DNA from: Hufsiella arboris
GTDB lineage: Bacteria; Bacteroidota; Bacteroidia; Sphingobacteriales; Sphingobacteriaceae
NCBI RefSeq assembly: GCF_009834875.1
Contig: NZ_WVHT01000002.1
Span: forward strand, 62,001-126,000
Reading direction: 5' to 3'
DNA length: 64,000 nucleotides
Shown here one piece after another: positions 36,992-64,000 of the stretch; positions within the stretch are counted from its first letter, which is position 1; each line of letters starts with the position of its first letter. A program made the position numbers and the translations under genes. The notes below the pieces were generated by a model. That model made no database searches and was not told where the DNA came from. It saw only the letters and a program-made list of their open reading frames with translations.

Positions 36992-37023
36992 TTTACGGTC
37001 TCTTAAAAAGGCGTATACATTTG
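36992..37023 (+). promoter_or_regulatory. susC promoter
   Basis: TACATTTG (37016-37023) matches TAnnTTTG; the -33 position holds TTTA (36992-36995) after a 20-bp spacer, a weak element in line with activator dependence. The leader to the susC ATG is about 60 bp. This placement also shows that the TTG at 37021 cannot be the susC start. Confidence 0.55.
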
Positions 37024-37089
37024 ACAGTGTATTGTAACCAGCAATACCTTTTAACCAATTTATTAACAATAAAAATCATTTCATTCATT

Positions 37090-40000
37090 ATGAGAGGAAG
37101 AATTACTCAAGTTTTCTTCATGGCCTGTATGTTGCTGATTTTTCCTGTATTGCTGTATGCACAGGACATTCAGGTTACCGGAAAGGTAACGGCCAAGTCT
37201 GACGGAGCACCGCTGCCGGGCGTAAGTGTTACCGTTAAAGGAACGACCCGGGGCACCAGTACAGATGCTTCCGGTAATTTTAGAATTACAGCTCCAACCG
37301 GTGCTGTATTAATGTTTAGACAGGTTGGTATGACTGATCAAAGCGTTACTGTATCAAACAGCACGCCTTTATCGGTAATTCTTACCGACAATGTGAAAAA
37401 CCTGGATGAGGTAGTGGTTGTGGGTTATGGAACGCAAAAGAAAAGCGACGTAACTGGTGCTATTTCAAGCGTAAAAACGAAGGATTTCCAGGATCAGCAA
37501 GTACTTAACGTCACTGATGTGCTTAAAGGTCGTGTATCCGGCGTGACCGCGGTACAAACTTCAGGAGCACCCGGTTCGGCAGCAACCATCCGGGTTCGTG
37601 GTATTACATCAATTAACAACTCTGACCCACTGTATGTGATTGATGGTATTACTGTTTTGAATGGCGGCATTGAAAATATCAATCCAAATGATATCCAGTC
37701 CATCGAAGTTTTAAAAGATGCTTCAGCTGCCATCTATGGTTCACGTGCTTCTGCAGGGGTTGTTTTAGTGACAACCAAAAAAGGAAGATCGGGTGATCCA
37801 CAGCTTACTTACAATGGATACATTGGCACACAAAATCCGGTAAAACATTTTGATCTGGCAAACGCGACCGAATATGCAACGCTGCGTAATCTTGCTGTAA
37901 CTAATGACGGAGGAAACGCACCGTTCGCTAACCCGTCGCAATACGGCGAGGGTACTGACTGGCAGGATCAGATCTTTGAAAAAAATGCGATGATCCAGAA
38001 TCATGGATTAGCGGTTTCAGGCGGAAGCGACAAGTCCACTTATTATACATCGTTCGGATACACAAACCAGCAGGGCATCATCTTTCCATCTGTATCCAAT
38101 TATAAGCGGTACAATTTTGCTGCCAATACAAATTTTAAGGTTAAGAAATGGATTAACATTGGCGAGAACTTCCAGTATGCTTATTCGAAAAACCAGGGTG
38201 GCGTAAATACGAACAGCGAATTTGGCGGTCCGTTAAGCTCGGCATTAAACCTGGATCCCATCACTCCGGTTGTAATAACAGGAACAGTGCCGTCAACAGG
38301 TTACACAAATCCTTACATCGTGCGTGACCCGCAGGGCCGTCCGTACGGAATTTCACAATATGTGGGTCAGGAGATGACAAATCCCGTTGCATGGCTGCAA
38401 ACCGTTCAGGGAAATTACAGCTGGTCGCACAACATCTTAGGGAACGCATTTGTGGAAATAATGCCTGTGAAAGGCCTAACTTTGAAAACGCAAGCGAACG
38501 GGAAACAAGCTTTTTACGGGGGACAGTCCTTTTCTCCGTTGTATTACTTGAACAGCCAGAGTAACAATACCTCGAACGTTAACGAAAACCGTTCAGCTAA
38601 CCGAAACTTTACCTGGAACTGGGATAACACAGCTCTTTATGAACAGAAGATAGATAAGCACAGTTACTCGGTATTAGTTGGTTTTACGGCCCAGGAGCAA
38701 CAAGGTGTAACCTTAAGCGGTCAGTATAACAATTTACCGAATATGACCTACGAGCAGGCGTCGTTTAATTATGCACTGGCAAATGCTAATAGGATAGCTA
38801 CATCCGGAGAAGACCAACCGTATCACACCGCTTCGTATTTCAGCCGCTTGAACTATAGTTATGATGGAAAATACCTTTTTACAGGAATTTTCAGACGGGA
38901 TGGTTCATCGAGATTTGGATCCAACAATGTATGGGGTAATTTTCCGGGCGCTGAGTTAGGATGGGTTATCAGCCAGGAAAACTTTATGAAGTCAATTAAT
39001 TTCATAAACTTTTTAAAACTTCGCGGATCGTACGGTGTAATCGGGAATGAGCAGTCATTAACTCCTTTCCAATATATCCCGATAGTAGCAGGCGGTCGGA
39101 ACTATGTTTTCGGAAACGATCAAATAACTATTGGAAATTCCATTACATCCCCAGCTAATCCTAACTTGAAATGGGAAGAAGTGCATACAAGTAATGTCGG
39201 CTTCGACGCGGTGTTGTTGTCAAACTTCAACCTGACTGTAGACCTGTACAGGAAGCTAACCAAAGGAATGCTTCAGGGGGTGCCGTTGCCATCATATAAC
39301 GGCTGGGATGCTTTGTATTTCGATAACGTAGGGAACCTCGAGAATAAAGGTGTCGAAGTATCTCTTGGATACAACAAGACATTTGGCCAAGTAAGGTTCA
39401 GCGGATCAGGTAACATCTCATACAACAAAAATGAAGTGACCTATCTAGGCTCAACAGCTTATTATGATACTGGCAGCTTCCAAAACTCTTCGTATTCGAT
39501 TTTCAGAACACAGGTAGGGCAACCCGTATCATCGTTCTATGGGTTCCATGAACTTGGTACCTTTAAATCACAGGCTGAAATTGACAGCTATGTTGGTGCT
39601 AACGGGCAAAAAATTCAACCTAATGCAAGGCCGGGCGATTTGAAATGGGAAGACACTAATGGCGATGGATCAATCGGTCAGGATGACAGACAGTTTTTAG
39701 GAAGCCAGCTTCCAAAATGGAACTACGGAATCAACCTGCATGCAGAATATAAAGGATTTGACGCGACAATATTCGGCCAGGGAGCATGGGATAATTTGCT
39801 GTACCAGGGGTACAGACGTTTAGATATCGCTGCTGCGAACTATCCAGCCGAAGCTTTAAATTCATGGACCACACAGAATGCATCAAGCAACTATCCCCGT
39901 TTAACGGCGTCTGATCCGAACCATAACTTTTCTAATCCATCAAACTTCAACTTACAGAGCGGCGCTTATTTCCGCATTAAAACTGCACAGATCGGTTATA

Positions 40001-40197
40001 CACTGCCTAAAAATCTCTTAAATAAAATTGATGTTAACCGTATCCGTGTTTATATCAGCAGTAATAATCTGGCGACGATCACTAAGTACAATGGTTTTGA
40101 TCCTGAAATCGGCGGTGATAACAATGCAAGAGGAATCGACCGCGGTATTTATCCGCAGGCGCGTTCGTTCCTGTTTGGATTAGATCTTACTTTGTAA
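37090..40197 (+). CDS. susC: SusC/RagA-type TonB-dependent outer-membrane glycan transporter
   Basis: A 1035-aa outer-membrane beta-barrel that imports oligosaccharides together with the SusD lipoprotein. The signal peptide ends near LLYAQ. A carboxypeptidase-regulatory-like domain follows (VTGKVTAKSDGAPLPGVSVTVKGTTRGTSTDASGNF is in about residues 18-55), then the TonB box/plug region (LDEVVVVGYGTQKKSDVTGAISSV, VLKGRVSGVTAVQTSGAPGSAATIRVRG, NPNDIQSIEVLKDASAAIYGSRASAGVVLVTTKKG) and the barrel. There is no N-terminal secretin/TonB (STN) signalling domain, so regulation does not go through an anti-sigma factor. The ATG at 37090 is chosen because the promoter lies just before it and the signal peptide starts there. 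susD follows after 19 bp. Confidence 0.96.
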   Translation: MRGRITQVFFMACMLLIFPVLLYAQDIQVTGKVTAKSDGAPLPGVSVTVKGTTRGTSTDASGNFRITAPTGAVLMFRQVGMTDQSVTVSNSTPLSVILTDNVKNLDEVVVVGYGTQKKSDVTGAISSVKTKDFQDQQVLNVTDVLKGRVSGVTAVQTSGAPGSAATIRVRGITSINNSDPLYVIDGITVLNGGIENINPNDIQSIEVLKDASAAIYGSRASAGVVLVTTKKGRSGDPQLTYNGYIGTQNPVKHFDLANATEYATLRNLAVTNDGGNAPFANPSQYGEGTDWQDQIFEKNAMIQNHGLAVSGGSDKSTYYTSFGYTNQQGIIFPSVSNYKRYNFAANTNFKVKKWINIGENFQYAYSKNQGGVNTNSEFGGPLSSALNLDPITPVVITGTVPSTGYTNPYIVRDPQGRPYGISQYVGQEMTNPVAWLQTVQGNYSWSHNILGNAFVEIMPVKGLTLKTQANGKQAFYGGQSFSPLYYLNSQSNNTSNVNENRSANRNFTWNWDNTALYEQKIDKHSYSVLVGFTAQEQQGVTLSGQYNNLPNMTYEQASFNYALANANRIATSGEDQPYHTASYFSRLNYSYDGKYLFTGIFRRDGSSRFGSNNVWGNFPGAELGWVISQENFMKSINFINFLKLRGSYGVIGNEQSLTPFQYIPIVAGGRNYVFGNDQITIGNSITSPANPNLKWEEVHTSNVGFDAVLLSNFNLTVDLYRKLTKGMLQGVPLPSYNGWDALYFDNVGNLENKGVEVSLGYNKTFGQVRFSGSGNISYNKNEVTYLGSTAYYDTGSFQNSSYSIFRTQVGQPVSSFYGFHELGTFKSQAEIDSYVGANGQKIQPNARPGDLKWEDTNGDGSIGQDDRQFLGSQLPKWNYGINLHAEYKGFDATIFGQGAWDNLLYQGYRRLDIAAANYPAEALNSWTTQNASSNYPRLTASDPNHNFSNPSNFNLQSGAYFRIKTAQIGYTLPKNLLNKIDVNRIRVYISSNNLATITKYNGFDPEIGGDNNARGIDRGIYPQARSFLFGLDLTL

Positions 40198-40216: not shown

Positions 40217-41728
40217 ATGAACAGAAAATATATTACTTACGGTGCGTCATTCGCTTTGTTAAGCTTAGGCTTCTTCGCATCCTGTAAAAAATCCTGGCTT
40301 GAGACTACTCCCGCGGGATTATATTTAGAGACAACATATTATTCAAGTCCCGACCAGGCATTTGCCGGACTTGTTGCGGCCTACGATCCCTTATCAACTG
40401 AAACCGGAGGGATGGACAACACCTATTCAAGCCCGCTTGGTCCGTTAAATGCGGCCTCAGATGATTGCGTGGCAGGTGGTGGCGGCCCAACAGATATGAC
40501 CACCTGGCAGGTGTGGAATAATTATACACTAACACCTGCGCAGGGACCGCAAGGCGAGTTCTGGGGAATAAATTTTAAAGGTGTTACCCGTGCAAATATT
40601 ATTCTTTCAAAGTTGGACGGTGTTCCCGGACTCGATGATGCCACGCGCAAAAGATATGTAGCTGAGGGCAAGTTTTTAAGGGCGCATTATTATTTCGATC
40701 TTGAACGCCTTTTTAAAAATGTTCCCCTGGTTACATCCCCAATTCTGTTAGCAGATGCCTATAATCAGCCACAGGCTGACCCTGCCGCGGTTTGGGCTCA
40801 GATTGAAAAGGATTTGAACGAAGCAATCCCGAATTTACCTGTGACAGTACCTGTCGCAGAAAACGGACGTGCCACTCAAGGCGCCGCTAAAGCGCTTTTA
40901 GGTAAGGTTTACTTGTATGAAAAGAAATGGCAGGATGCGGTTAACCAGTTTAAAGATGTAAACGGCACAGCTGGGGGAACCAGTCAATACGGTTACAAAC
41001 TGATGGCTAACTTTGGGCAAATCTTTGATCCCAAATACAAGTTTAATAGCGAATCTATATTTGAAATCCAGAAAACAGGTACGCAAAGCTTTGACTGGGG
41101 TGGATGGAATACATTCAAATCAAACGTATACGTCCAAATGGTCGGTCCACGTAACTATACTGGCGTGATTTACTGGGGTGGATGGGGTTTCAATCCTGCA
41201 ACCATGTCGTTAGTTAATGCATTAAAGGGCGATCCCCGTTATGGATACACGGTTTACAACATGGATAGTCTGGTTGCGGTCAATAAAACGAAGTACGAAG
41301 CAAGCTATCAGAACTCCGGATATTTTATTCAGAAATATGCACCGTTGCTGAAAAACAAAGCGTCGACAGGAACCGCTGAATTAAACTTCCCAAATGATTA
41401 TATCGAGATCCGTTTAGCTGATACGTACCTGATGGAGGCGGAAGCACTTGTTCAACTTGGACAGGCAGCAGGCCGTGCGGCAGACTTGTTAAATGCGGTT
41501 CGTGCTCGTGTTGGATTAACAGCTATTCCGGCAACGTTGGATAATATCTACAACGAACGCAGATTAGAACTTGCAACAGAGGGACACCGTTGGTTTGACC
41601 TTGTTCGTACTGGTCAGGCACCAACTGTACTTGGTCCGGATGGTTTCAAGGCAGGAAAACATGAGTTATTGCCAATTCCTTTGAATGAATTGAATAACAC
41701 TAAACTGGTTCAAAACCCAGGTTATTAA
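40217..41728 (+). CDS. susD: SusD/RagB-type glycan-binding lipoprotein
   Basis: A 503-aa surface lipoprotein (lipobox with C23 in FFASCKK) that lids the SusC barrel and binds its glycan. Typical features are SWLETTPAGLYLETTYYSSPDQAFAGLVAAYD at the start, YVAEGKFLRAHYYFDLERLFKNVPLV, TPR-like RATQGAAKALLGKVYLYEKKWQDAVNQF and the C-terminal YNERRLELATEGHRWFDLVRTG with HELLPIPLNEL. It is paired with susC. A hairpin terminator follows at once. Confidence 0.96.
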   Translation: MNRKYITYGASFALLSLGFFASCKKSWLETTPAGLYLETTYYSSPDQAFAGLVAAYDPLSTETGGMDNTYSSPLGPLNAASDDCVAGGGGPTDMTTWQVWNNYTLTPAQGPQGEFWGINFKGVTRANIILSKLDGVPGLDDATRKRYVAEGKFLRAHYYFDLERLFKNVPLVTSPILLADAYNQPQADPAAVWAQIEKDLNEAIPNLPVTVPVAENGRATQGAAKALLGKVYLYEKKWQDAVNQFKDVNGTAGGTSQYGYKLMANFGQIFDPKYKFNSESIFEIQKTGTQSFDWGGWNTFKSNVYVQMVGPRNYTGVIYWGGWGFNPATMSLVNALKGDPRYGYTVYNMDSLVAVNKTKYEASYQNSGYFIQKYAPLLKNKASTGTAELNFPNDYIEIRLADTYLMEAEALVQLGQAAGRAADLLNAVRARVGLTAIPATLDNIYNERRLELATEGHRWFDLVRTGQAPTVLGPDGFKAGKHELLPIPLNELNNTKLVQNPGY

Positions 41729-41781: not shown

Positions 41782-42627
41782 ATGAGATCACTTTATTTTA
41801 TTCTTGCAGTTTCTGGAATAAGCTTCCTAAGCTGTTCGTCAAAAAAGGACGATTCCGTAATATATAATCCAACCTATCCCGAAAAAAAACAATACACGTT
41901 TGAAACCACACCTGTTTGGTCGGATGAGTTTGATTACAATGGACTTCCCAATCCGGAAAAGTGGGCTTATGATATTGGCGGCAGTGGCTGGGGAAACAAT
42001 GAATTAGAATATTACACAAACGACCAAAAAAATGCCGGTGTTGCCAATGGTAAATTGACTATTACAGCCCGCAAGGAATCTTTTGGCGGCAGAGATTATA
42101 CATCTGCAAGGCTTATTACAAAAGGGAAAGGCGATTTTCTCTACGGCCGATTCGAAATTAAAGCCAAATTACCCGCAGGTAAAGGAACCTGGCCCGCTAT
42201 CTGGATGCTGCCGACTGACTGGGCGTATGGGGACTGGCCGAAATCCGGCGAGATCGACATCATGGAGCATATTGGATACGACCAGGATGTTATTCATATT
42301 TCCACACACAGCGAAGCTTACTATTTCAAAATAAACACCCAGAAAACTGCCGTTAAAAAAATCGAGAATGCGAGTACGGAATATCATAAATATCGCATGG
42401 ACTGGACTCCCGATTCCTTAAAAGGATTTATAGACGATCAGTTGATATTTTCTTTTGCTAATGAATACACAGGATATAGAGCATGGCCATTTGACAAGAA
42501 GTTCCATCTACTATTGAATGTAGCAGTAGGCGGCGATTGGGGCGGTGCGCAAGGCGTGGATCCATCTGTTTTTCCAGCGGCGATGGATGTAGACTATGTT
42601 AGAGTATATAAGATGATCGAAAACTAA
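41782..42627 (+). CDS. GH16-family endo-beta-1,3-glucanase-like lipoprotein
   Basis: A 281-aa glycoside hydrolase. C18 in SFLSCSSKK is a lipoprotein site, so the enzyme is probably on the cell surface. The GH16 active site GEIDIMEHIG is complete, with E157 (nucleophile), D159 and E162 (acid/base); the bulged form with a methionine marks laminarinase-type GH16 enzymes. WAYDIGGSGWGNNELEYYT and WPAIWMLPTDW are also typical. It should cut internal beta-1,3 (or mixed) linkages. It is first of the hydrolase genes after the terminator. Confidence 0.92.
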   Translation: MRSLYFILAVSGISFLSCSSKKDDSVIYNPTYPEKKQYTFETTPVWSDEFDYNGLPNPEKWAYDIGGSGWGNNELEYYTNDQKNAGVANGKLTITARKESFGGRDYTSARLITKGKGDFLYGRFEIKAKLPAGKGTWPAIWMLPTDWAYGDWPKSGEIDIMEHIGYDQDVIHISTHSEAYYFKINTQKTAVKKIENASTEYHKYRMDWTPDSLKGFIDDQLIFSFANEYTGYRAWPFDKKFHLLLNVAVGGDWGGAQGVDPSVFPAAMDVDYVRVYKMIEN

Positions 42628-42634
42628 CTACACT

Positions 42635-44095
42635 GTGAAAAACGTATTCGCTAAAACTTTACAAATAGTTCTTATTCTGCTAACCGCAGGTGTTTGTAGC
42701 TGCAGAAAAAAAAGTGACGGCGGAAAAGGAACGATCGATCCACCCGTTAATTCCCCGTCTCAACCTCTTAAAACAGATATCGTAACCTGGATGACCTCAC
42801 CGGATCAAACGTCCCTGTTACAAAAAATGAATTTGTCGCTAATATTTGATAATGCGACGAATTCTTTGCCAACGATTACTGTTGATACTACTCAAAATTT
42901 TCAGGCAATCGATGGTTTTGGTTATACCTTAACCGGTGGAAGCGCCACCTTATTAAATTCGCTTAACGATCCGGTTAAAGACGATTTGTTAAAAGAACTA
43001 TTCCTTTCCGACAGTAACCGCATTGGCGTAAGTTACCTACGGATAAGCATCGGCGCTTCAGACTTGAGCGCTGAACCATTTACCTATGATGATATCGCTT
43101 ATGGACAGCAGGATTTAATTCTCTCTAATTTCTCTATTGAACGGGAAAGGAAAGACATGATTCCTATTCTTAAAAAGATTATTCAATTAAACCCTAATAT
43201 AAAAATCCTCGGGTCGCCATGGTCGGCACCGCTTTGGATGAAAGATAAAAACAGTTTTGTGGGCGGAAGTTTGAAACCGGAATATTATGCCGTTTACGCA
43301 AACTATCTGGTAAAATATATCCAGGCGATGAAAGCCGAAGGTATTATTATTGACGCGATAACACCCCAAAACGAACCGCTTCATGGCGGTAACAATCCAA
43401 GTATGGTGATGCAGGCTGCGGAACAAGCTGATTTCATTGGAAAAGCGCTTGGCCCTGCTTTTCGTAGAGCCGGATTGGCAACCAAGATTATTTCCTATGA
43501 TCATAATGCCGATCGTCCGGATTATCCGATAGCCGTTTTAAACAATAGTGATGCTAACAGCTATGTTGACGGTTCAGCATTTCATCTGTACGGCGGTGAT
43601 ATATCTGCACTTTCACAGGTTCATGATGCGTTTCCGGCTAAGAATGTGTATTTCACCGAGCAATGGGTGGGCGGCCCGGGTAATTTTGGCGGCGATCTTT
43701 CCTGGCACGTAGAGAACCTGATTATTGGTGCAACAAGAAACTGGAGCAAAAATGTATTGGAGTGGAATCTTGCTTCCGATCCGAACTACAATCCGCATAC
43801 ACAAGGAGGTTGCAATAACTGCCTCGGCGCGTTAACGATAGCTAATTCTGTTAGCCGCAATGTTGCCTACTACATCATTGCTCACGCATCCAAGTTTGTA
43901 AGGCCCGGATCAATCCGTATTTCGTCAAATACCGTTGCCGGATTGCCTAACGTAGCATTTAAAACGCCGGCTGGAAAAAAGGTGCTGATAGTTTTGAACA
44001 AAGGAACGTCCACTCAATCATTTAATATTGGGTTTAATAATAAACAAGCCGTTGCATCGCTGGCTGCGGGGGCAGTGGCGACTTTCGTATGGTAG
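42635..44095 (+). CDS. GH30 subfamily 3-like beta-1,6-glucanase, copy 1
   Basis: A 486-aa lipoprotein candidate (CSCRKK near residue 23) that starts at a GTG. Acid/base E247 lies in PQNEPLHGG and nucleophile E342 in YFTEQWVG. The DGFGYTLTGGSA start of the barrel and the SPWSAPLWMKD motif fit GH30, and the overall pattern fits subfamily 3, which holds endo-beta-1,6-glucanases. It is closely related to the gene at 45649. The GGCNNCLGALTI segment with two cysteines is shared by both. The probable substrate is beta-1,6-glucan or the branches of fungal/algal beta-glucan. Confidence 0.88.
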   Translation: MKNVFAKTLQIVLILLTAGVCSCRKKSDGGKGTIDPPVNSPSQPLKTDIVTWMTSPDQTSLLQKMNLSLIFDNATNSLPTITVDTTQNFQAIDGFGYTLTGGSATLLNSLNDPVKDDLLKELFLSDSNRIGVSYLRISIGASDLSAEPFTYDDIAYGQQDLILSNFSIERERKDMIPILKKIIQLNPNIKILGSPWSAPLWMKDKNSFVGGSLKPEYYAVYANYLVKYIQAMKAEGIIIDAITPQNEPLHGGNNPSMVMQAAEQADFIGKALGPAFRRAGLATKIISYDHNADRPDYPIAVLNNSDANSYVDGSAFHLYGGDISALSQVHDAFPAKNVYFTEQWVGGPGNFGGDLSWHVENLIIGATRNWSKNVLEWNLASDPNYNPHTQGGCNNCLGALTIANSVSRNVAYYIIAHASKFVRPGSIRISSNTVAGLPNVAFKTPAGKKVLIVLNKGTSTQSFNIGFNNKQAVASLAAGAVATFVW

Positions 44096-44185: not shown

Positions 44186-45643
44186 ATGAAAAAAATGCTG
44201 GTGCCTATGCTTATTGCGGCATCCTTTACAACCTTGTATGCACAAAAGAAATCGGAAACGAAGGTTTATTCTGCTTCCGGAAAACAGGTAACACAATTTA
44301 CAACGGCTGAAAATTCTGATTTACGGATCACAGAAAACGGTAAATTATCTTTTAAAGAATTGCGGCAACCAATGGAAACACAGCCTTGTGTATTTGTTGA
44401 CCCAACTATTACCTTTCAATCAATGGTTGGAATAGGAGGCGCCTTAACTGATGCGTCAGCAGAAACCTTCGCGAAGCTTTCACCGGAGGTGCAAAAAGAA
44501 TTTCTGACAGCTTATTATGATAAAAACAAAGGCATTGGATTCACGTTTGCCCGCACGAGTATCGGCAGCTGCGATTTTTCAAGCGGCAGTTATACTTACG
44601 TAGCCGACAATGATAAAGACCTGAAAACTTTTAGCGTAGCCCACGACGAAAAATATCGCATTCCATTTATTAAACAGGCTTTTGCTGCGGCAGGTGGAAA
44701 GCTCGATATGTTTGTAAGCCCCTGGACACCACCGGCATGGATGAAGGACAATAATAGCCTGGTTAAAGGAGGTAAACTTAAGCCGGAATTCATGCAAAGC
44801 TGGGCGAATCACTACGTAAAGTTCATCAAAACATATGAGGCAAAAGGCATTCCTGTTTGGGGTTTAAGCGTTCAAAATGAGCCAATGGCTGTTCAGAAAT
44901 GGGAATCTTGCGTTTACACAGCCGAAGATGAACGTGACTTCGTGAAAAACTTTTTGGGTCCCACATTGAAGAAAAACGGGTTAAGCGATAAAAAACTGAT
45001 TGTATGGGATCATAACCGTGACCTTATTTTTCAGCAAGCCAGCACCATCCTGGCAGATAAAGATGCCGCAAAATATATCTGGGGAATCGGGTTTCACTGG
45101 TACGAAACATGGACAAAAAGCCAGATGTTGTTTGATAACGTAAAACTTACGCATGAAGCTTTTCCTGATAAAAATCTGATCTTCACGGAGGGCTGCAAGG
45201 AGCAATTTGATTTTGATAAATTGAACGACTGGTCGTTAGGAGAACGTTATGGCATGTCGGTTATTAACGACCTGAATGATGGAACAGTAGCATGGACAGA
45301 CTGGAATGTATTATTGGATGAAAAAGGTGGCCCGAACCACGTAGGCAATTTTTGTTTTGCGCCGGTCCATGCAGATACCAGAACCGGTAAGCTTATCTAT
45401 ACCAATGCTTTTTATTACCTGGGACACTTTTCAAAGTTTATTCATCCGGGAGCTAAACGCGTAGCTTGCTCATCAAGTCGCGATAAACTGCTGAGTACTG
45501 CCTATATCAATCCCGATGGTTCTGTCGCGGTAGTGGTGATGAATAAATCGGATGAAAAATTGGATTATAACCTGTGGATAAAGGGACAAGCTGCCGCAAC
45601 TACGAGCATGCCGCATTCTATCTCTACGTTAATAATCAATTAA
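44186..45643 (+). CDS. GH30 subfamily 1-like beta-glucosidase/glucosylceramidase
   Basis: A 485-aa secreted glycoside hydrolase (signal peptide to YAQ). Acid/base E232 lies in VQNEPMAVQKWESC and nucleophile E335 in FTEGCKEQF; GIGGALTDASAETFAKLSP, VSPWTPPAWMKDN and GFHWYETW match the glucosylceramidase-like branch of GH30. It is clearly divergent from the flanking GH30 copies. It likely releases glucose or short units from beta-glucans. The 90-bp gap before it shows no clear promoter. Confidence 0.88.
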   Translation: MKKMLVPMLIAASFTTLYAQKKSETKVYSASGKQVTQFTTAENSDLRITENGKLSFKELRQPMETQPCVFVDPTITFQSMVGIGGALTDASAETFAKLSPEVQKEFLTAYYDKNKGIGFTFARTSIGSCDFSSGSYTYVADNDKDLKTFSVAHDEKYRIPFIKQAFAAAGGKLDMFVSPWTPPAWMKDNNSLVKGGKLKPEFMQSWANHYVKFIKTYEAKGIPVWGLSVQNEPMAVQKWESCVYTAEDERDFVKNFLGPTLKKNGLSDKKLIVWDHNRDLIFQQASTILADKDAAKYIWGIGFHWYETWTKSQMLFDNVKLTHEAFPDKNLIFTEGCKEQFDFDKLNDWSLGERYGMSVINDLNDGTVAWTDWNVLLDEKGGPNHVGNFCFAPVHADTRTGKLIYTNAFYYLGHFSKFIHPGAKRVACSSSRDKLLSTAYINPDGSVAVVVMNKSDEKLDYNLWIKGQAAATTSMPHSISTLIIN

Positions 45644-45648
45644 TTCTG

Positions 45649-47034
45649 ATGTTTAAGAAAAATTTACTCCTGGCAGGGCTGGCGCTTTTATCGTGGCCAG
45701 CCTTCGCCCAGGAAAATAAACTGACCTATTGGCTGACAGATCCGGCGAATAACATTCTTTTTAAAAAAGAAACGTTAACAAATGATCTCTCGAAATCAGC
45801 GCCTACAATTACAATTGACGTCAGTCAGAAATATCAAAGTATCGACGGATTTGGCTTCGCACTGACCAGTGGAAGCACCACGCATTTGATGAACATGAGT
45901 CCTGCGAAACGCTCGGCACTGCTACATGAGCTTTTCTCCGTCGATGGAAGCAATATCGGAACCAGCTATTTGCGGATTAGTATTGGCGCGTCCGACCTGT
46001 CCGACCATGTTTTTACTTACGATGATATGCCGGATGGGAATACTGACGAGAAGCTGGAACATTTTGATCTTGGGCCCGACAAAACGAATGTCATCCCTGC
46101 ATTAAAAGAAATACTCGCTATTAACCCGTCTATCAAAATACTTGGTTCTCCCTGGTCGCCGCCATCCTGGATGAAAACAAATAATGACTCAAGAGGAGGG
46201 ATGCTGAAACCGGAATATTATGAAACATACGCCCAGTACTTTGTAAAATATATTCAGCAAATGAAAGCCGCCGGCATAAGGATCGATGCGATTACCATTC
46301 AAAACGAACCGCTGCACCCCGGAAATAACCCGAGCTTGTTGATGCCCGCGCCCGACCAGGCTGAATTCATCAAAAACCATTTGGGTCCTGCGTTTGAGAA
46401 AAACCACATCGATGCGAAAATTATCATCTACGACCATAATGCTGACCGGCCGGATTACCCGATATTGATCTTAAGTGATCCGAAAGCTGCAAAATACATT
46501 GATGGATCGGCTTTCCATCTTTACGGCGGAAAGATCGAAGCTCTGAGCGATGTTCACAACGCCTTTCCGAACAAAAACATTTATTTCACCGAGCAATGGG
46601 TTGGCGCTCCCGGGAATCTGGAACGCGATCTAAGTGAGCATATAAAAAATCTCGTAATTGGAGCCACCCGTAACTGGAGTCATAATGTAATTGAATGGAA
46701 TCTGGCTGCTGACCCGGAAAACAAACCTTATACCGATCGCGGCGGCTGCGACCGCTGTTTGGGCGCAATCACAATTGATAAAGACGAGGTAAAAAGAAAC
46801 CCTGCGTATTACGTGGTGGCTCACTCCGCTAAATTTGTGCGGCCCGGTTCTGTCCGCGTCGCTTCAAACGAACCGGATTCATTGCCGAATGTGGCTTTCA
46901 AAACTGCTTCAGGTAAAACAGTCCTGATCGTTTTAAATACAGCAAAAGCATCCCAAACATTTAACATACAGTTATCGAAAAATAAATATTCCGCAACGTT
47001 GAACGCCGGCGCGGTTGCCACTTATATCTTTTAG
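45649..47034 (+). CDS. GH30 subfamily 3-like beta-1,6-glucanase, copy 2
   Basis: A 461-aa paralogue of the gene at 42635, with signal peptide MFKKNLLLAGLALLSWPAFA and no lipobox, so periplasmic or secreted. Acid/base E220 lies in IQNEPLHPG and nucleophile E315 in YFTEQWVG. Blocks such as DHNADRPDYPI, SAFHLYGG and ATRNWS are identical or nearly so in both copies. The ATG at 45649 is preferred over an upstream in-frame ATG inside the previous gene because the signal peptide starts there. Different localisation suggests division of labour between surface and periplasm. Confidence 0.88.
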   Translation: MFKKNLLLAGLALLSWPAFAQENKLTYWLTDPANNILFKKETLTNDLSKSAPTITIDVSQKYQSIDGFGFALTSGSTTHLMNMSPAKRSALLHELFSVDGSNIGTSYLRISIGASDLSDHVFTYDDMPDGNTDEKLEHFDLGPDKTNVIPALKEILAINPSIKILGSPWSPPSWMKTNNDSRGGMLKPEYYETYAQYFVKYIQQMKAAGIRIDAITIQNEPLHPGNNPSLLMPAPDQAEFIKNHLGPAFEKNHIDAKIIIYDHNADRPDYPILILSDPKAAKYIDGSAFHLYGGKIEALSDVHNAFPNKNIYFTEQWVGAPGNLERDLSEHIKNLVIGATRNWSHNVIEWNLAADPENKPYTDRGGCDRCLGAITIDKDEVKRNPAYYVVAHSAKFVRPGSVRVASNEPDSLPNVAFKTASGKTVLIVLNTAKASQTFNIQLSKNKYSATLNAGAVATYIF

Positions 47035-47036
47035 CT

Positions 47037-48812
47037 ATGAGATTATTGAATCGTACAAAATTTAAGCTGATTTCGGCTGCTGCACTTTGCACGGCTCTTT
47101 ATACATCTGATATAAAAGCACAAGGATTCTTAAAAACTGACGGACAGAAAATAGTCAACGAAAAAGGTCAAAACGTATTGTTTCGCGGTATCGGCCTTGG
47201 CGGCTGGATGCTGCAGGAAGGTTATATGCTCGGGATTAACAAGGACGGACAGCAGTATAAGATACGGCAACGGATTGAAGACCTGATCGGCAAGAAACAA
47301 ACTGAAGAATTTTATGCTGGCTGGCTGGCGAATCACACGCGTAAAGCGGATGTCGACTCGCTTAAAAAGTGGGGATTTAATTCAATTCGCCTGCCAATGC
47401 ATTACAATTTATATACCCTGCCGGTAGAGCAGGAGCCTGAGGCTGGGAAAAATACCTGGCTTGATAAGGGCTTCACGATGACCGACAGCCTTTTGGCATG
47501 GTGCAAAGCGAATAAAATGTATCTCATCCTTGATCTTCATGCGGCGCCTGGCGGGCAGGGAACGGACCTGAACATTGCCGATCGGGATCCATCTAAACCT
47601 TCGTTATGGGACAGCGAAGCGAACAAACAAAAAACTATCGCGCTCTGGCGGAAACTCGCCGAACGTTATGCAAATGAAAGCTGGATAGGTGCATATGATA
47701 TCATCAATGAACCGAACTGGGGTTTTGAAGATCCCAAAGGTGACGAGCATGGCACCAAAGAGCAGAAAAACGAACCATTGCAAAAACTGATGGTTGATAT
47801 AACAAAGGCGATCCGCGAAGTTGATAAAAAGCATATCGTCATTATTGAAGGCAACGGCTGGGGAAATAACTATAACGGTATAACGCCAACCTGGGATAAT
47901 AATCTTGTAATGAGCTTTCACAAGTACTGGAACTTCAACGATCAGGCATCAATCGTTCATATTGTTGATTTTCGCAACAAGTACAATATTCCCGCCTGGT
48001 TAGGTGAGACAGGCGAGAACTCGAATGTGTGGTTCACTCAGGCCATCCAGTTATTTGAAAAAAACAACATCGGCTGGTCCTGGTGGCCGCTTAAAAAATT
48101 GGGAAACAGCAACCCGGAGCAAATCCGCTCGAACCTGAATTATCAGCAGGTTGTTGATTATTGGAATGATCCTTCGAAAGGGAAACCAACGGAAAGTAAT
48201 GCGTACAGCGGTTTGTTTGAACTGTTATCTTATTTGAAAGTCGAGAATGCGATCATTCATCACGATGTAATCGACGCTATGATACGTCAGCCGTTTACCG
48301 GCGAAACCAGGCCATTTAAAGCTAACAAACTGGTTTCAAAGCTTACTATAAACGCAGTAGATTATGATCTGGGCAGGAACGGATCGGCGTATTTCGACCA
48401 GGATACGGCTGATTATCATGTATCTACCAACAAACGCGGCGCAGGCAACAGAAACCGTGTTTACCGGAATGATGGTGTTGATATCCAGAAAGAAGATGGT
48501 AAATATGAAAGTTACTTTGTAACTTCTGTGGAAGATGGCGAATGGTTGCAATTCACAGTCAACGCCGTAACTTCGGGTACTTATAAAGTGAATGTATTGG
48601 CTTCTGCTGATCGCTCCAGTGCAAGTTTTTCAGCTGTTATAAATGGTAAAAAGCTTGCGGCGATAAATGTTCCTGTGACAGCAGATAACACCGGCTGGCA
48701 GACGGCTTCCGCAGGTAATGCAACACTGAATAAGGGGTTAAATAAGATACGTATTTATGCTAAAAAGGGCGGATTCAATATAAAAAGTATCGAACTTAGT
48801 AAGTCAAAGTGA
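47037..48812 (+). CDS. GH5-family glucanase with C-terminal CBM6-like domain
   Basis: A 591-aa secreted enzyme. The GH5 barrel shows FRGIGLGGWMLQEGYML, GFNSIRLPMHYNLY, acid/base E225 in DIINEPNW and nucleophile E324 in WLGETGENS, and it resembles exo-beta-1,3-glucanase-like GH5 enzymes. The final ~140 residues (about 445-590) form a beta-sandwich of CBM6 type (GEWLQFTVNAVTSGTYKVNVLAS, NKGLNKIRIYAKKGGFNIKSIEL). It starts 2 bp after the GH30 copy 2 stop. A glucan-binding module on a glucanase fits this locus. Confidence 0.88.
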   Translation: MRLLNRTKFKLISAAALCTALYTSDIKAQGFLKTDGQKIVNEKGQNVLFRGIGLGGWMLQEGYMLGINKDGQQYKIRQRIEDLIGKKQTEEFYAGWLANHTRKADVDSLKKWGFNSIRLPMHYNLYTLPVEQEPEAGKNTWLDKGFTMTDSLLAWCKANKMYLILDLHAAPGGQGTDLNIADRDPSKPSLWDSEANKQKTIALWRKLAERYANESWIGAYDIINEPNWGFEDPKGDEHGTKEQKNEPLQKLMVDITKAIREVDKKHIVIIEGNGWGNNYNGITPTWDNNLVMSFHKYWNFNDQASIVHIVDFRNKYNIPAWLGETGENSNVWFTQAIQLFEKNNIGWSWWPLKKLGNSNPEQIRSNLNYQQVVDYWNDPSKGKPTESNAYSGLFELLSYLKVENAIIHHDVIDAMIRQPFTGETRPFKANKLVSKLTINAVDYDLGRNGSAYFDQDTADYHVSTNKRGAGNRNRVYRNDGVDIQKEDGKYESYFVTSVEDGEWLQFTVNAVTSGTYKVNVLASADRSSASFSAVINGKKLAAINVPVTADNTGWQTASAGNATLNKGLNKIRIYAKKGGFNIKSIELSKSK

Positions 48813-49726
48813 TTAACCAGTTATTAATAATCCTTCTAGTGACAATCGGTTCCCTGCAAAATGAAACGGCTGATGTACGGCTTATTGTCGATGCCAAGGC
48901 AAAACTTGGCGAAGGTTCAGTGTGGGACAATGAATCAAATAAGTTGTACTGGATTGATATTGAAGGCCGGAAGTTTCATATATACGATCCTGCGACCAGG
49001 CAAGACAAAGCTTTTTCTGTCGGTGAGCGACCAGGAACGGTTGTTCCGGCCGGAAAAGGAAAAGCGCTGATCGCCTTACAAAGCGGAATACACAGTATTG
49101 ACGTTAAAACCGGGGCCTTGGCGTTCATCACCGATCCCATAAAGAATCCCAACATCCGATTTAACGATGGCAAATGCGACCCGTCCGGCCGTTTTTGGGT
49201 TGGGACAATGCATCTCCAATATGTAAAAGGTGCCGCGGTCCTTTTTCGTTTCGACCCGGATCATTCCGTGCATACAATGTTGACTGATGTGACGATATCT
49301 AACGGGATTGTTTGGTCACCCGATAAGCGTACTATGTATTACGTCGATACACCTACCGGCAAAGTAGATGCTTTCGACTTTGACAACAAAACAGGTGAAA
49401 TAAGTAACAGGCGCACAGTTATTAACGTGCCATCGGAACTGGGTTCCCCTGATGGGATGACCATTGATTCGGAAGGGAAATTATGGACAGCGTTGTGGGG
49501 AGGTTCGGCCGTCGCCCGGTGGGATCCTGCATCCGGTAAATTATTACAGAAAATCGGTGTGCCCGCCGCGAATGTTTCGTCCTGTGCCTTCGGTGATAAA
49601 GACTTTAAAACGTTATATATTACTACGGCGCAGGATGATAAACATCCGTTGAGTGGTGGCTTGTTTGCCGCCCGCCTGGCTATAAAAGGAGTGCGCGCCG
49701 AAAAATATAAGGGAGCTGTCAATTGA
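48809..49726 (+). CDS. SMP-30/gluconolactonase-family protein
   Basis: A 305-aa beta-propeller of the SMP-30/gluconolaconase/LRE type, with AKLGEGSVWDNESNKLYWIDIEG, RFNDGKCDPSGRFWVGTMH, SNGIVWSPDKRTMYYVDTPTGKVDAFD and SPDGMTIDSEGKLWTALWGG, including the conserved Glu, Asn and Asp metal ligands. Such enzymes hydrolyse sugar lactones to aldonic acids. A short N-terminal hydrophobic segment suggests export. It begins with GTG overlapping the GH5 stop and is 4 bp from the cytochrome gene, so the two are tightly linked. Confidence 0.9.
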   Translation: MINQLLIILLVTIGSLQNETADVRLIVDAKAKLGEGSVWDNESNKLYWIDIEGRKFHIYDPATRQDKAFSVGERPGTVVPAGKGKALIALQSGIHSIDVKTGALAFITDPIKNPNIRFNDGKCDPSGRFWVGTMHLQYVKGAAVLFRFDPDHSVHTMLTDVTISNGIVWSPDKRTMYYVDTPTGKVDAFDFDNKTGEISNRRTVINVPSELGSPDGMTIDSEGKLWTALWGGSAVARWDPASGKLLQKIGVPAANVSSCAFGDKDFKTLYITTAQDDKHPLSGGLFAARLAIKGVRAEKYKGAVN

Positions 49727-49730
49727 AACT

Positions 49731-50951
49731 ATGAGAATAAAACCGGTTTATCTTGTTCCGATTTGCATTTTCGCCATCGTTTTTATTTTCTCACGATGCC
49801 TGAAATCATCTTCTAAGCAAGATTTTCGCGGACCTCAATATGCCGGTTCTGAAAAATGTGTGAACTGCCACCGGGATATTTATAATTCCGCAAGCCATAC
49901 AGCACATTTTAAAACTTCACAGCCGACAAACAAAAATGATATCCTGTCACTGGTGAATCAAACCAGCCAGTTTGTTTTTAACGATGACGATAAAGTCGTT
50001 GTGCATGCCAAAGGCGACAGTATTTACCAAACGAAATACAGAGGCGGTTCAGCTATAGAGTCCCATGCAATAGATGTGACATTCGGCGCTGGCGTAAAGG
50101 CGCAAACTTTCGGCTTTTGGGCGGTTGATGGCCTTCATCAGCTACCGCTAACTTATTTCAGAGCGGCGAATGGATGGGCAAACAGTCCGGGTTATCCGGC
50201 AACCACCGCCCGATTTGAACGGGTAATTCCCAGCCGCTGCCTGGAATGTCACGCTTCATATACCGCAAAAGAATTCACCGGCAAAGGCACACTGGCACAG
50301 CAGGAAAAGCTCATAAAAGGCTCGATCATATTTGGTATTGATTGCGAACGCTGCCATGGCCCCGCTGCCGAACACGTAGAGTTCCACACAAATCATCCGG
50401 AAGAAAAGAAACCTGAATTTATTGCTGTTTATAAACAGTTGTCACGGCAGCAAAAACTCGATATGTGCGGCGTCTGCCACTCCGGAAACGACATGGACAT
50501 GCAGAGCAGTACCTTCGCATTTAAACCCGGAGATAAACTTATGGACTATTATTACCCAAGTTTTGGCGAAAGTAGTTCGCAGCCGGATGTGCACGGCAAA
50601 CAAATGCAATTGCTGCAGTCGAGTAAGTGTTTTCAGGAAAGTTCGACCTTAACTTGTACTACCTGCCATAATTCACACAGTGATGTAAAAGGCCTGGTCG
50701 CTTACTCCCATAATTGTCGCAGCTGTCACCAGCCACAACATAATTTTTGCACCCAAAAAGATGCGGTAGCCTTTACCTTAAATACCAACTGTATCGATTG
50801 CCACATGCCGCAGATCCCGTCGAAAGTGATTAACGTGCAAATTGATCGTCAGAATAAAACGGTGCCTTATCTTTTACGAACGCACCGCATTGCCGTTTAT
50901 CCTGATTCAGTGATCAGAAAAACAACCGCTTCAAATAAATCTTCATCATAA
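49731..50951 (+). CDS. Heptaheme c-type cytochrome
   Basis: A 406-aa exported protein with seven CxxCH heme-binding motifs: CVNCH (43-47), CLECH, CERCH, CGVCH, CTTCH, CRSCH and CIDCH. One membrane-type segment at the N-terminus ends in C23 (IFSRC), which may be a lipid anchor or simply follow an uncleaved helix. The pattern fits the cytochrome c554-like multiheme family. Electron transfer is its expected role; the donor and acceptor are unknown. It is embedded in a polysaccharide operon between SMP-30 and GH3 genes with 4- and 12-bp gaps, which is unusual. Confidence 0.92.
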   Translation: MRIKPVYLVPICIFAIVFIFSRCLKSSSKQDFRGPQYAGSEKCVNCHRDIYNSASHTAHFKTSQPTNKNDILSLVNQTSQFVFNDDDKVVVHAKGDSIYQTKYRGGSAIESHAIDVTFGAGVKAQTFGFWAVDGLHQLPLTYFRAANGWANSPGYPATTARFERVIPSRCLECHASYTAKEFTGKGTLAQQEKLIKGSIIFGIDCERCHGPAAEHVEFHTNHPEEKKPEFIAVYKQLSRQQKLDMCGVCHSGNDMDMQSSTFAFKPGDKLMDYYYPSFGESSSQPDVHGKQMQLLQSSKCFQESSTLTCTTCHNSHSDVKGLVAYSHNCRSCHQPQHNFCTQKDAVAFTLNTNCIDCHMPQIPSKVINVQIDRQNKTVPYLLRTHRIAVYPDSVIRKTTASNKSSS

Positions 50952-50963
50952 AAATTAATCAAA

Positions 50964-53204
50964 ATGACGTCTTTCAGAACCGGTTTCAGCGTTGTATGCC
51001 TATTCGTTAGTTCGATCGCTGCAGCGCAAACACCAAAGAAAACAGATCAGTCGATTGACTCGAAAGTAAACGCCTTACTGGCCAAAATGACTTTGGAGGA
51101 AAAAATCGGACAGTTAAATCAATATACAAGTGACAGGCTTGCTACCGGTCCGCTTAGCCCGAATAGTTCAAAATATGAGGATATCAGGAACGGGAAAGTA
51201 GGGTCGATGTTAAATGTTCGCGGCGCAAAAGACACACGGATGTTACAGGATATGGCAATGCAGTCGCGCCTGAAAATACCGTTACTTTTCGGCCTGGACG
51301 TGATACATGGCTATCGTGTAACTTTCCCGATCCCATTGGCCGAAGCTGCAAGCTGGGACATGAATACGGTCGAACTTTCCGCACGTGTTGCCGGAAAAGA
51401 AGCCGCCGCCGCCGGCCAGCACTGGACATTTGCGCCGATGGTTGATATTTCACGTGATCCGCGGTGGGGACGTGTGATGGAAGGTGCCGGAGAAGATACT
51501 TACCTGGGAAGTTCTATTGCGGCGGCAAGGGTGAAAGGATTTCAAGGCAAGGGCCTGGGAAACACGGATGCGGTGATGGCTTGCGTAAAACACTTTGCAG
51601 CTTATGGCGCTGCGATAGCTGGTCGCGATTACAACACGGTTGACATGAGTGACCGTTTGTTATGGGAGGTTTATTTGCCGCCTTTTAAAGCTGCTTTGGA
51701 TGCAGGCGCTGCTACATTCATGAACTCGTTTAACGACCTGAATGGAACGCCGGCCACAGGAAATGCCTATTTACAGCGTGATATTCTAAAAGGCAAGTGG
51801 AATTTCCAGGGGTTTGTGGTGAGTGACTGGGGCTCGATACGTGAGATGATCCCACATGGATTCGCAAAAGATGGCAAAGACGCAGCCCGCCTCGCGTTAA
51901 ACGCAGGCAGTGATATGGACATGGAAGGCCGTTGTTATATCGACAACCTTGCAGCGCTGGTTAAAGAAGGTAAAGTTTCAGAATCTCTCATTAATGACGC
52001 AGTGAAGCGTATTCTGCGGAAAAAATACGAAATGGGCTTATTCGATGACCCATACCGGTTCAGTGATCAAAAGCGTGAAGACGCTGTATTGAACAGTGCG
52101 GAAAATAAAAAAGCAGCGCTCGAGGTCGCTAAGAAAAGTATCGTTCTGCTTAAAAATGAAAGCCAGTTATTGCCTTTGAATAAAAACGCCGGATCGATTG
52201 CAGTGATCGGCCCTCTCGGGAAATCAAGCGAGGATATGAAGGGATTTTGGTCAGTAACTTGGGACAATGATCACCTGGTTTCCTTATATGAAGGTTTAGA
52301 CAATAAGCTGAAAGGAATAGTAAAACTGTCGTACGCGCAGGGATGCGATGTTACCGACACTAGCAAAGCCGGATTCGCGGAAGCAGTAAATGCCGCTAGA
52401 AACGCAGACGTCGTCGTAATGGCTGTCGGCGAAAAGTTCGATATGACTGGTGAGGCTAAGAGTCGCGCGAACATCCATTTACCGGGAGTTCAGGAAGAGT
52501 TGATCCAGGCTGTTAAAGCAACAGGTAAACCGGTGGTTGTGTTGGTTATGGCAGGTCGGCCGCTCATTTTTAACTGGACAGCTGATCATGCGGACGCTAT
52601 TTTATACACCTGGTGGCTGGGCAGTGAAGCCGGCAATGCCATAGCCGATGTGTTGTTCGGAGATTACAATCCCGCAGGAAAACTTCCAATGTCATTTCCA
52701 CGGGCAGAAGGCCAGATACCTGTTTTTTACAATCACAAGAACACAGGCCGTCCGGCGTCATCGGATCATTATGAGCAATACCGTTCAACCTATCTCGATC
52801 TTCCAAACAGTCCGCGCTATTCGTTTGGTTACGGTTTAAGCTATACAAAATTTGACATGTCGGATCTTAAACTCGATAAGTCAAAAGTTACTCAAAACGA
52901 CGTGATAAAAGTCAGCTTTACTTTGAAGAACACAGGGAAATCCGATGGCGAAGAGGTAGTTCAATTATACCTTCGCGACATGGTGGCAAGCGTCACCCGT
53001 CCCGTAAAGGAATTAAAAGATTTCCAGAAAGTATTTTTAAAAGCTGGTGAAAGTAAAACTATCAATTTCACAATCACGAAAGAAAAACTATCTTTCTACG
53101 ACCAGAAAATGAATTGGATTGCGGAACCCGGCGAGTTCGATTTGATGATAGGAAACTCATCTGATCATATTCTGCTCGAACAAAAATTCGAACTTGTGGA
53201 TTAA
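50964..53204 (+). CDS. bglX: GH3-family beta-glucosidase (BglX-like)
   Basis: A 746-aa secreted beta-glucosidase. The GH3 N-terminal barrel carries the nucleophile D288 in FVVSDWGS, VKHFAAYG and PRWGRVMEGAGEDTYLGS. The (alpha/beta)6 sandwich domain has NAGSIAVIGPLG, and the fibronectin-III-like C-terminal domain is present (EVVQLYLRDMVASVTRPVKELKDFQKVFLKAGE). It should release glucose from beta-1,3/1,6-linked oligosaccharides in the periplasm. Length and domains are complete. Confidence 0.95.
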   Translation: MTSFRTGFSVVCLFVSSIAAAQTPKKTDQSIDSKVNALLAKMTLEEKIGQLNQYTSDRLATGPLSPNSSKYEDIRNGKVGSMLNVRGAKDTRMLQDMAMQSRLKIPLLFGLDVIHGYRVTFPIPLAEAASWDMNTVELSARVAGKEAAAAGQHWTFAPMVDISRDPRWGRVMEGAGEDTYLGSSIAAARVKGFQGKGLGNTDAVMACVKHFAAYGAAIAGRDYNTVDMSDRLLWEVYLPPFKAALDAGAATFMNSFNDLNGTPATGNAYLQRDILKGKWNFQGFVVSDWGSIREMIPHGFAKDGKDAARLALNAGSDMDMEGRCYIDNLAALVKEGKVSESLINDAVKRILRKKYEMGLFDDPYRFSDQKREDAVLNSAENKKAALEVAKKSIVLLKNESQLLPLNKNAGSIAVIGPLGKSSEDMKGFWSVTWDNDHLVSLYEGLDNKLKGIVKLSYAQGCDVTDTSKAGFAEAVNAARNADVVVMAVGEKFDMTGEAKSRANIHLPGVQEELIQAVKATGKPVVVLVMAGRPLIFNWTADHADAILYTWWLGSEAGNAIADVLFGDYNPAGKLPMSFPRAEGQIPVFYNHKNTGRPASSDHYEQYRSTYLDLPNSPRYSFGYGLSYTKFDMSDLKLDKSKVTQNDVIKVSFTLKNTGKSDGEEVVQLYLRDMVASVTRPVKELKDFQKVFLKAGESKTINFTITKEKLSFYDQKMNWIAEPGEFDLMIGNSSDHILLEQKFELVD

Positions 53205-63386: not shown

Positions 63387-63404
63387 AATGTTATAATTGG
63401 TTTT

Positions 63405-64000
63405 TTATTTGTTAATATAATCGTAATCGTATTTGAGACTTTCCAGCGGCTGTGTGCTGTATTCTTCCTGTTCCACAAAAAAATATTTCATACCCGAGGC
63501 TGCTTTCATGTCAAGTAAACCTTTGATATCAACGTCACCTTTGCCAAATTCAGTACTGTGCTTTTTAGCTTTGTTCATATCTTTGAGATGCCATAACGGA
63601 AAACGTCCCGGATATTTTTTAAAATAGGTTGCAGGATCATTTCCCGTAACAATGAGCCAGCCCAGGTCAAGCTCCATTTGTACAAGCTTCGGATCAGTAT
63701 TGTCTAATAAGATATCATACAGCGTTTGCCCGTTTTCTTTTTCGAACTCATATTCGTGATTGTGATAACCGAAAATGAGTCCGGCCTTTTTACATTCTTC
63801 GCCTGCTTTGTTGAAACGCTCGGCCGCTCGTTTATAATTATCAATTCCTTGAATTTCCACTGGCAAGACTGAGCATACCAGGTAGGTTTGTCCCGCCTCG
63901 GCAGCCATGTCAATCGATTGCTGCCATTTCCCGTCGATCTGGACGTGGCCGCTTCTCAGAGTCATTCCCAGGTCGGAGCAGATTTTTTTTATTTCTTTTG
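63405..64000 (-). CDS. Sugar phosphate isomerase/epimerase-like protein, copy 2 (N-terminus outside window)
   Basis: A partial gene that continues past the window edge: codons upstream of the internal ATG at 63965 remain open and read KEIKKICSDLGM, a normal piece of the barrel. It is a paralogue of the following gene, with FGYHNHEYEFEKENGQTLYDILLDNTDPKLVQMELDLGW, FPLWHLKDMNKAKKHS and KYFFVEQEEY. The catalytic/metal residues seen here are conserved. The complete N-terminus, possibly with a signal peptide, is not visible. Confidence 0.88.
   Translation of the reverse strand, partial: KEIKKICSDLGMTLRSGHVQIDGKWQQSIDMAAEAGQTYLVCSVLPVEIQGIDNYKRAAERFNKAGEECKKAGLIFGYHNHEYEFEKENGQTLYDILLDNTDPKLVQMELDLGWLIVTGNDPATYFKKYPGRFPLWHLKDMNKAKKHSTEFGKGDVDIKGLLDMKAASGMKYFFVEQEEYSTQPLESLKYDYDYINK

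Follow-up and report, generated by a model that had tools for sequence, protein, structure and literature searches.

According to the excerpted text of PMC6703420, the multiheme reductases MccA and OcwA carry an additional beta-sheet domain that other members of the NrfA family do not have, and hemes 2 and 5 of OcwA are open; the atypical heme motif of MccA is described in the portion available of PMC6976685. Among polysaccharide utilization loci (PULs), the beta-1,6-glucan PUL of Bacteroides thetaiotaomicron (bt3309-bt3314) has neither a cytochrome nor an SMP-30 gene in its gene list, as given in the accessible part of PMC5481569, and the word cytochrome is absent from the main text, in the version available, of the paper on the Chitinophaga pinensis fungal-wall PUL (PMC10449523). 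We have analyzed a stretch of 64,000 nucleotides from Hufsiella arboris (contig NZ_WVHT01000002.1, positions 62,001 to 126,000; hereafter, the window), in which an SMP-30-type lactonase gene and a heptaheme cytochrome gene are located between the glycoside hydrolase (GH) genes GH5 and GH3 of a SusCD/GH16/GH30 operon, with all genes on the + strand. This operon resembles the B. thetaiotaomicron locus in its SusCD, GH30 and GH3 genes, and differs from it by the addition of the cytochrome and SMP-30. A sequence-only reading of this DNA had noticed that the SMP-30 gene and a gene with seven CxxCH motifs lie 4 bp apart in the middle of the enzyme series, which the coordinates, the SGL domain and the CxxCH count confirm. 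We show here that the cytochrome recurs, without being obligatory, in PULs of the Sphingobacteriaceae and Chitinophagaceae that are probably directed at fungal beta-glucan, and to which it would add a redox accessory. The locus is of a known PUL type, and no earlier description of the accessory was found: among the papers listed by a literature search on multiheme cytochromes in PULs, with most subscription journals outside its coverage, none was on such a link.

The heptaheme cytochrome and its predicted fold

The cytochrome open reading frame (ORF) encodes 406 amino acids with exactly seven CxxCH motifs, and no CxxCH was present in the other window ORFs (at least 100 amino acids, retained set). 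Pfam assigned it to Cytochrome_C554 (3.9e-6) and to further multiheme models. Its features are as follows.

49731-50951, + strand: heptaheme c-type cytochrome (CxxCH count, Pfam, structure model)
49743-49802, + strand: N-terminal helix, residues 5-24, read as a membrane helix, with the conserved Cys23
49857-49871, + strand: heme 1, CVNCH
49920-50225, + strand: beta-domain, residues 64-165, between hemes 1 and 2 (structure model)
50238-50252, + strand: heme 2, CLECH, whose counterpart in OcwA would be heme 2, the open heme of the active site
50343-50357, + strand: heme 3, CERCH
50466-50480, + strand: heme 4, CGVCH
50592-50630, + strand: H288, Q291 and C300, near-invariant residues outside the heme motifs, 5′ of heme 5
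50655-50669, + strand: heme 5, CTTCH
50715-50729, + strand: heme 6, CRSCH
50790-50804, + strand: heme 7, CIDCH, followed by MP

When the structure model of the cytochrome (predicted local distance difference test, pLDDT, 86.7) was submitted to Foldseek, OcwA of Thermincola potens (6i5b) was the sole entry below 0.001 (E 1.4e-8), and OcwA was also the best profile match (E 6.4e-18). Structural alignment placed the model closest to 6i5b (Z 16.0, 3.9 Å, 298 residues aligned), followed by the undecaheme S-layer cytochrome of Carboxydothermus ferrireducens (6qvm, which we take to be OmhA; Z 12.1, 3.9 Å, 247 aligned) and by the octaheme sulfite reductase MccA/SirA (4rkm; Z 10.1, 4.9 Å, 282 aligned). 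These three alignments cover residues 34-402 of the model, and the next unrelated structure, with Z 6.4, was far below them. In the model, hemes 1 and 2 are also separated by a beta-domain, as described for OcwA and MccA. Folded alone (pLDDT 91), this domain matched 6i5b (Z 6.1) and 6qvm (Z 5.6) at the level of unrelated lipocalin-like domains. The possibility that it is a carbohydrate-binding module (CBM) was also considered and set aside, the lone fold having returned lipocalin-like domains and OcwA with no CBM among 50 VIA-align rows and no Foldseek entry below E 0.001, an absence that by itself excludes nothing.

The similarity to these proteins has clear limits. The window cytochrome has seven hemes rather than the nine of OcwA, it has an N-terminal helix, it lacks the C-terminal three-helix bundle (the model shows a single helix, residues 391-405, after heme 7), and, with many of its relatives, it sits in PULs of Bacteroidota. 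The 6qvm protein is alike in fold but has 11 hemes and is a Gram-positive S-layer protein, whereas MccA shares the fold and the beta-domain but has a heme motif (CX15CH or CX12(N or A)KGCH) that was found in none of the 109 cytochromes compared. Judged from motif order, window hemes 1-4 and 5-7 would correspond to OcwA hemes 1-4 and 6-8, and OcwA hemes 5 and 9 appear to have been lost. With the predicted fold counted as shown, the model describes the cytochrome as a shortened relative of the OcwA/MccA-type multiheme reductases.

The relatives were collected by a pattern scan with one genome per species, which gave 56 cytochrome loci, and by a search of 251 genomes of the family, 81 of which matched (73 with an identity of at least 37%, and a further 8, from genera g10 and g23, at 29-33%); dereplication at 97% reduced 113 cytochromes to 109, in 108 loci (L033 is counted twice). 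Seven CxxCH motifs were present in 108 of the 109 (window counted), a figure that leans on the preselection for at least six, by which ORFs with fewer were excluded (L044, L156, L160). C-terminal to the last heme motif, a median of 45 residues remained. A CXXCK heme, catalytic in most known NrfA proteins, was found in none of the 109; since the generic pattern CX(10-17)CH fits C300 plus heme 5 trivially, the stricter MccA motifs given above were scored instead. Two of the excluded loci, L044 (Pedobacter borealis) and L156 (G149), carry a 202-aa cytochrome ORF with five CxxCH before the gene labelled TBDT774, apparently a truncated copy, and a PUL of Pedobacter ginsengisoli carries a tandem cytochrome pair (L033:9983-12351).

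Among the candidate distal ligands, H59, H215, H316 and H385 were found in all 56 sequences and H288 in 96% of them; H219 (80%) and H337 (71%) are variable, and both are present in the window cytochrome. Position 300 was Cys in 41 of 42 sequences (the set combines the window with 41 of 56 listed cytochromes; another set was made up of 31 of 39 listed), the exception being L055, with a His within the sequence KHGK, whose shape we take to resemble that of nitrite-reductase relatives. The H288/Q291/C300 stretch was profile-aligned to the heme-2 pocket region of OcwA, and by analogy heme 2 may have an open distal site.

The sequence-only reading had placed sugar oxidation at the cell surface, and the membrane end of the cytochrome makes a surface position of this protein doubtful. 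A lipobox, the site of signal peptidase II, needs a small residue before the Cys. Such a residue (S or A) precedes the first Cys in 68 of 77 SusD and GH16 proteins encoded in the cytochrome loci. The cytochromes end their helix with [LF]S[QR]C, so that Cys23 is preceded by Q in 60 and by R in 41 of 110 sequences (101/110; 4 further have no Cys there), and the ordinary lipobox of surface lipoproteins is lacking. With Q or R before Cys23 in place of a small residue, the protein is more probably anchored in the inner membrane, its hemes facing the periplasm, than exposed at the surface.

Recurrence of the cytochrome in PULs

The neighbourhoods were classed by the genes within 8 kb of the cytochrome, a classification that omits the 29 short loci L058-L086 (1.5 kb flank; several of their genomes are included with wide flanks). 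GH30 or GH5 was found near 54 of the 109 cytochromes, 50 of them with SusC/D and 4 without SusC/D in range; the window is classed with the latter because its SusD ends 8.0 kb away. A further 28 are near SusC/D (13 with UnbV and SusC/D, and 15 with SusC/D in the absence of GH30/GH5). The proposal that the cytochrome belongs with the glucan operon was thus borne out by the co-occurrence check. As a rough chance bound, 1.4 of 105 cytochromes would be expected near GH30/GH5 if each genome had three such clusters, loci not being independent, as against the 54 observed. In a control with about 1.5 kb of flank, GH5, GH30 or SusD accompanied 26 of the 29 best-scoring short cytochrome loci and 0 of 26 SMP-30 loci.

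The same association was observed at the level of whole genomes. Among the 251 family genomes the cytochrome was present in 73 and GH5 in 65, and 37 genomes carried the two together (odds ratio 5.5, p 3e-8, kinship uncorrected; the 8 low-identity matches were left out); GH5 was less than 400 bp from the cytochrome in 25 genomes and within 8 kb in 28 of the 37. The nearest same-strand upstream gene within 300 bp (n=109) was GH5 in 31 cases, GH30 in 15, SusD in 13 and another gene in 19, with nothing in 31. Gene orders vary, e.g., GH5-cytochrome-TBDT774, GH30-cytochrome-GH5, SusD-cytochrome-GH30, and sigma factor-FecR-SusC-SusD-cytochrome without GH30/GH5. On a quick 105-row tree, from which L053, L054, L055 and L057 were left out, the GH30/GH5 label changes at least 13 times (starred branches force 9 of these changes), compared with 35 times in shuffles, so the association is spread over several clades, though clustered. 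TBDT774 and DUF4249 genes downstream of the cytochrome are confined to one Pedobacter clade, and L178 has GH5-TBDT774-DUF4249 but not the cytochrome that its relatives have in between. The cytochrome-bearing clusters, e.g., in Pedobacter, probably serve the use of fungal cell-wall sugars.

Other arrangements were seen as well. In L048, L125, L129, L141, L142, L144 and L149 there is a SusC-SusD-cytochrome row but GH30/GH5 is absent from the 8 kb around it; the row of L129 is located behind sigma-70-family and FecR genes. A cytochrome clade accompanied by UnbV/ASPIC genes, mostly with SusC/SusD, comprises L136, L147, L150-L155, L157 and L159; in L151 a PAP2 protein (haloperoxidase-like by our reading) and FG-GAP proteins are found near the cytochrome.

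Candidate functions of the cytochrome

From the genes, their association with PULs and the predicted fold we infer a membrane side, an open heme 2, a direction of electron flow and a type of substrate, and propose, at somewhat less than an even chance, that the cytochrome is a membrane-anchored periplasmic reductase or relay of fungal beta-glucan PULs. A single N-terminal helix would hold it in the inner membrane with the hemes in the periplasm, electrons would be taken from the quinol or cytochrome c pool, and they would run along the seven hemes and, at heme 2, reduce some small oxidised compound. The acceptor would be one met during feeding on the fungal wall: peroxide, nitrite or NO, Fe(III), or a quinone.

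Several observations weigh against this proposal. No PUL marker was found within 8 kb of 27 of the 109 cytochromes, 7 of them from Planctomycetota or Acidobacteria, although 27 is an upper bound because 19 of the 109 have less than 7 kb on one side. GH5 and the cytochrome are apart in 9 of the 37 genomes with both, and 28 of the 65 GH5 genomes have no cytochrome. L174 and L175, where the nearest relatives of GH5 and of the first GH30 of the window stand in the same GH30-GH30-GH30-GH5 row, have neither cytochrome nor SMP-30 (L175 lies at a contig end with its GH5 split by a stop, and its genome also has no cytochrome match), so the cytochrome is not needed for glucan use. In addition, the helix carries a conserved Cys at its end, to which a lipid might yet be attached through an atypical pathway.

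The strongest of the rival explanations, though a rather unlikely one, is detoxification, in which the cytochrome would remove nitrite, NO, hydroxylamine or peroxide released by the fungus. OcwA can use nitrite (kcat 1 per min) and hydroxylamine as electron acceptors, according to the excerpted PMC6703420, and the accessory, dispensable pattern of the cytochrome fits such a role; on the other hand, the 109 cytochromes lack both the CXXCK heme and the MccA-type motif, and a detoxifying protein need not be in a PUL. We regard as unlikely a more specific version of the reductase proposal, a dedicated redox arm in which SusCD and the OcwA-like heptaheme protein would couple the uptake of wall fragments to the reduction of an oxidant, maybe at a heme where a conserved Cys has taken the place of the usual neighbouring His; the oxidant would be wall-derived or fungus-made, and some genomes would carry the SusC-SusD-cytochrome operon without GH30/GH5.

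Two further explanations are improbable to about the same degree. In the first, the cytochrome would act as a pro-oxidant, reducing O2 or Fe(III) so that H2O2 and Fe(II) loosen fungal walls, or feeding an oxidative polysaccharide enzyme. OcwA works in extracellular electron transfer as a reductase on the cell surface (PMC6703420, as excerpted), OmhA has been linked with ferrihydrite reduction (PMC7829351, in the part available), and one cytochrome clade lies by UnbV genes, with the PAP2 and FG-GAP proteins of L151. However, the membrane end favours the periplasm, and an LPMO_10 profile (lytic polysaccharide monooxygenase, LPMO; other LPMO families were not searched) had no match in the cytochrome's own genome. 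The electron delivery to oxidative polysaccharide cleavage suggested by the sequence-only reading gains nothing from this search, and an LPMO partner was dropped from consideration within the scope of that one family. In the second, the protein would be a general respiratory cytochrome carried in PULs through inherited gene order alone. A Pedobacter clade of 19 rows with long common synteny around GH5-cytochrome-TBDT774 is consistent with this, as are the cytochromes without PUL markers and the cytochrome bd genes (CydAB), which occur near the cytochrome only in L031, L032 and L038; the position of the cytochrome differs by clade, however, and the label changes on the tree also speak against gene order alone.

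The SMP-30 gene and the search for redox partners

The order of the operon is SusC, SusD, GH16, three GH30, GH5, SMP-30, cytochrome, GH3, two alginate-lyase-family genes, GH18, ThuA and GH9, and the genes to which we refer are the following.

37021-40197 as listed, start probably ATG 37090, + strand: SusC-like TonB-dependent transporter (Pfam), relatives of which recur by the cytochrome
40217-41728, + strand: SusD-like lipoprotein (Pfam), relatives of which recur by the cytochrome
41782-42627, + strand: GH16 (Pfam)
42635-44095, 44186-45643 and 45574-47034 as listed, + strand: three GH30, nearest model endo-beta-1,6-glucanase NF053856
47037-48812, + strand: GH5 with a C-terminal CBM35/CBM6-like module
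48809-49726, + strand: SMP-30/regucalcin-type lactonase with a hydrophobic N-terminus (Pfam SGL)
50964-53204, + strand: GH3 beta-glucosidase, exceeding the BglX model cut-off
54354, + strand: alginate-lyase-family gene

A beta-1,6-glucan PUL is marked by a SusCD pair together with a GH30_3 endo-beta-1,6-glucanase. SusC, SusD and GH30 are present here, and the three GH30 proteins score 409, 396 and 257 bits with the endo-beta-1,6-glucanase model NF053856, all under its cut-off of 700. Judged by family, GH30, GH16, GH3 and GH18 point to fungal wall glucan and chitin as the probable target. The first 4 bp of the SMP-30 ORF (305 aa, GTG start) coincide with the end of GH5 at its stop codon, and the cytochrome ORF is separated from GH3 by 12 bp. 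No step in base composition was seen at the SMP-30/cytochrome pair, and promoter and terminator sites in the window were no more frequent than in shuffles. Elsewhere in the window (62496-63965, - strand) there are two adjacent xylose-isomerase-like (AP_endonuc_2) ORFs, the second of which may pass the window end.

The SMP-30 protein is a member of the SMP-30/regucalcin lactonases, with an SGL domain (1.8e-86 over residues 33-275), matches to regucalcin (PDB 3g4e, 4gnb) at E about 5e-53, and the metal-site residues present; E35, N165, D215, R117 and N119 align to what we take to be the site of human regucalcin. It keeps the site residues of the regucalcin/SMP-30 gluconolactonases and differs from them in having PUL neighbours and in being, as its hydrophobic N-terminus suggests, probably exported. 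Relatives at E 1e-60 or better were found in 26 of the 251 family genomes, and 26 SMP-30 loci, taken with flanks of about 1.5 kb, contained none of the window's PUL genes. The nearest relatives (59% identity in G031, locus L172, and 54% in G007, locus L173) have no GH30/GH5 within about 9 kb, and both genomes are without the cytochrome; in L173 paired SusC/SusD-like genes of a different type (27-31% identity) lie a few kb from SMP-30, and in L172 (8986-11499) a 3-keto-disaccharide hydrolase gene lies two genes from it. The sequence-only reading had paired SMP-30 and the cytochrome, and this pair was sought in other PULs: among 145 cytochrome loci, with both strands considered, SMP-30 was present only in the window and in its copy L087. 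With SMP-30 absent from every other cytochrome locus, the pair is not conserved and was rejected as a unit; SMP-30 would be a separate lactonase that entered this operon copy, and in this genome it looks like a one-off neighbour of the cytochrome.

A partner dehydrogenase, also anticipated by that reading, was not seen. In the window's own genome there are 6 GSDH and 5 GMC matches, all outside the PUL, with the best GSDH about 26 kb away, and the clusters common to at least three of the first loci, part of which were put to Pfam, showed no sugar dehydrogenase; within this scope, a sugar dehydrogenase was discarded as a PUL partner. A 2-hydroxyacid dehydrogenase of an NAD-binding family is located three genes downstream of the cytochrome in 16 loci of one Pedobacter clade, and a nitroreductase on the opposite strand recurs near the cytochrome within one Pedobacter clade. 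In L145 (8989-18758) the cytochrome is followed by UnbV, a 3-keto-disaccharide hydrolase, a protein with a cytochrome c domain and a second 3-keto-disaccharide hydrolase, all near SusCD. A pectate-lyase-fold protein, GH55-like by our reading and with a C-terminal partial SGL match, directly precedes GH5 and the cytochrome in L010 (5172-8159) and L161 (12029-15013).

An oxidative branch of glucan breakdown, in which a dehydrogenase would oxidise glucan ends, SMP-30 would open the lactone and the cytochrome would carry the electrons, is consistent with the 4-bp spacing, the retained lactonase residues, the GSDH and GMC genes of the genome and, as faint echoes, the GH55-like proteins and the 3-keto-disaccharide hydrolases of L145 and L172, but we consider it very unlikely, given the confinement of SMP-30 to one of the 145 loci and its copy, its nearest relatives in cytochrome-free genomes and away from GH30/GH5, the recurring neighbours looked at, which include no sugar dehydrogenase (the 2-hydroxyacid enzyme being NAD-binding), the distance of the best GSDH and the lack of an LPMO_10 match. 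What stands of it is the tie of the cytochrome to the PUL, and not the pairing with SMP-30, the sugar dehydrogenase or the surface site.

PULs are understood as systems for binding, hydrolysis and import, and a recurring multiheme cytochrome would add electron transfer to these activities. Its presence in PULs would tie feeding on fungal walls to respiration or to a chemical contest with fungi, and the many genomes with and without the cytochrome gene make the question directly testable.

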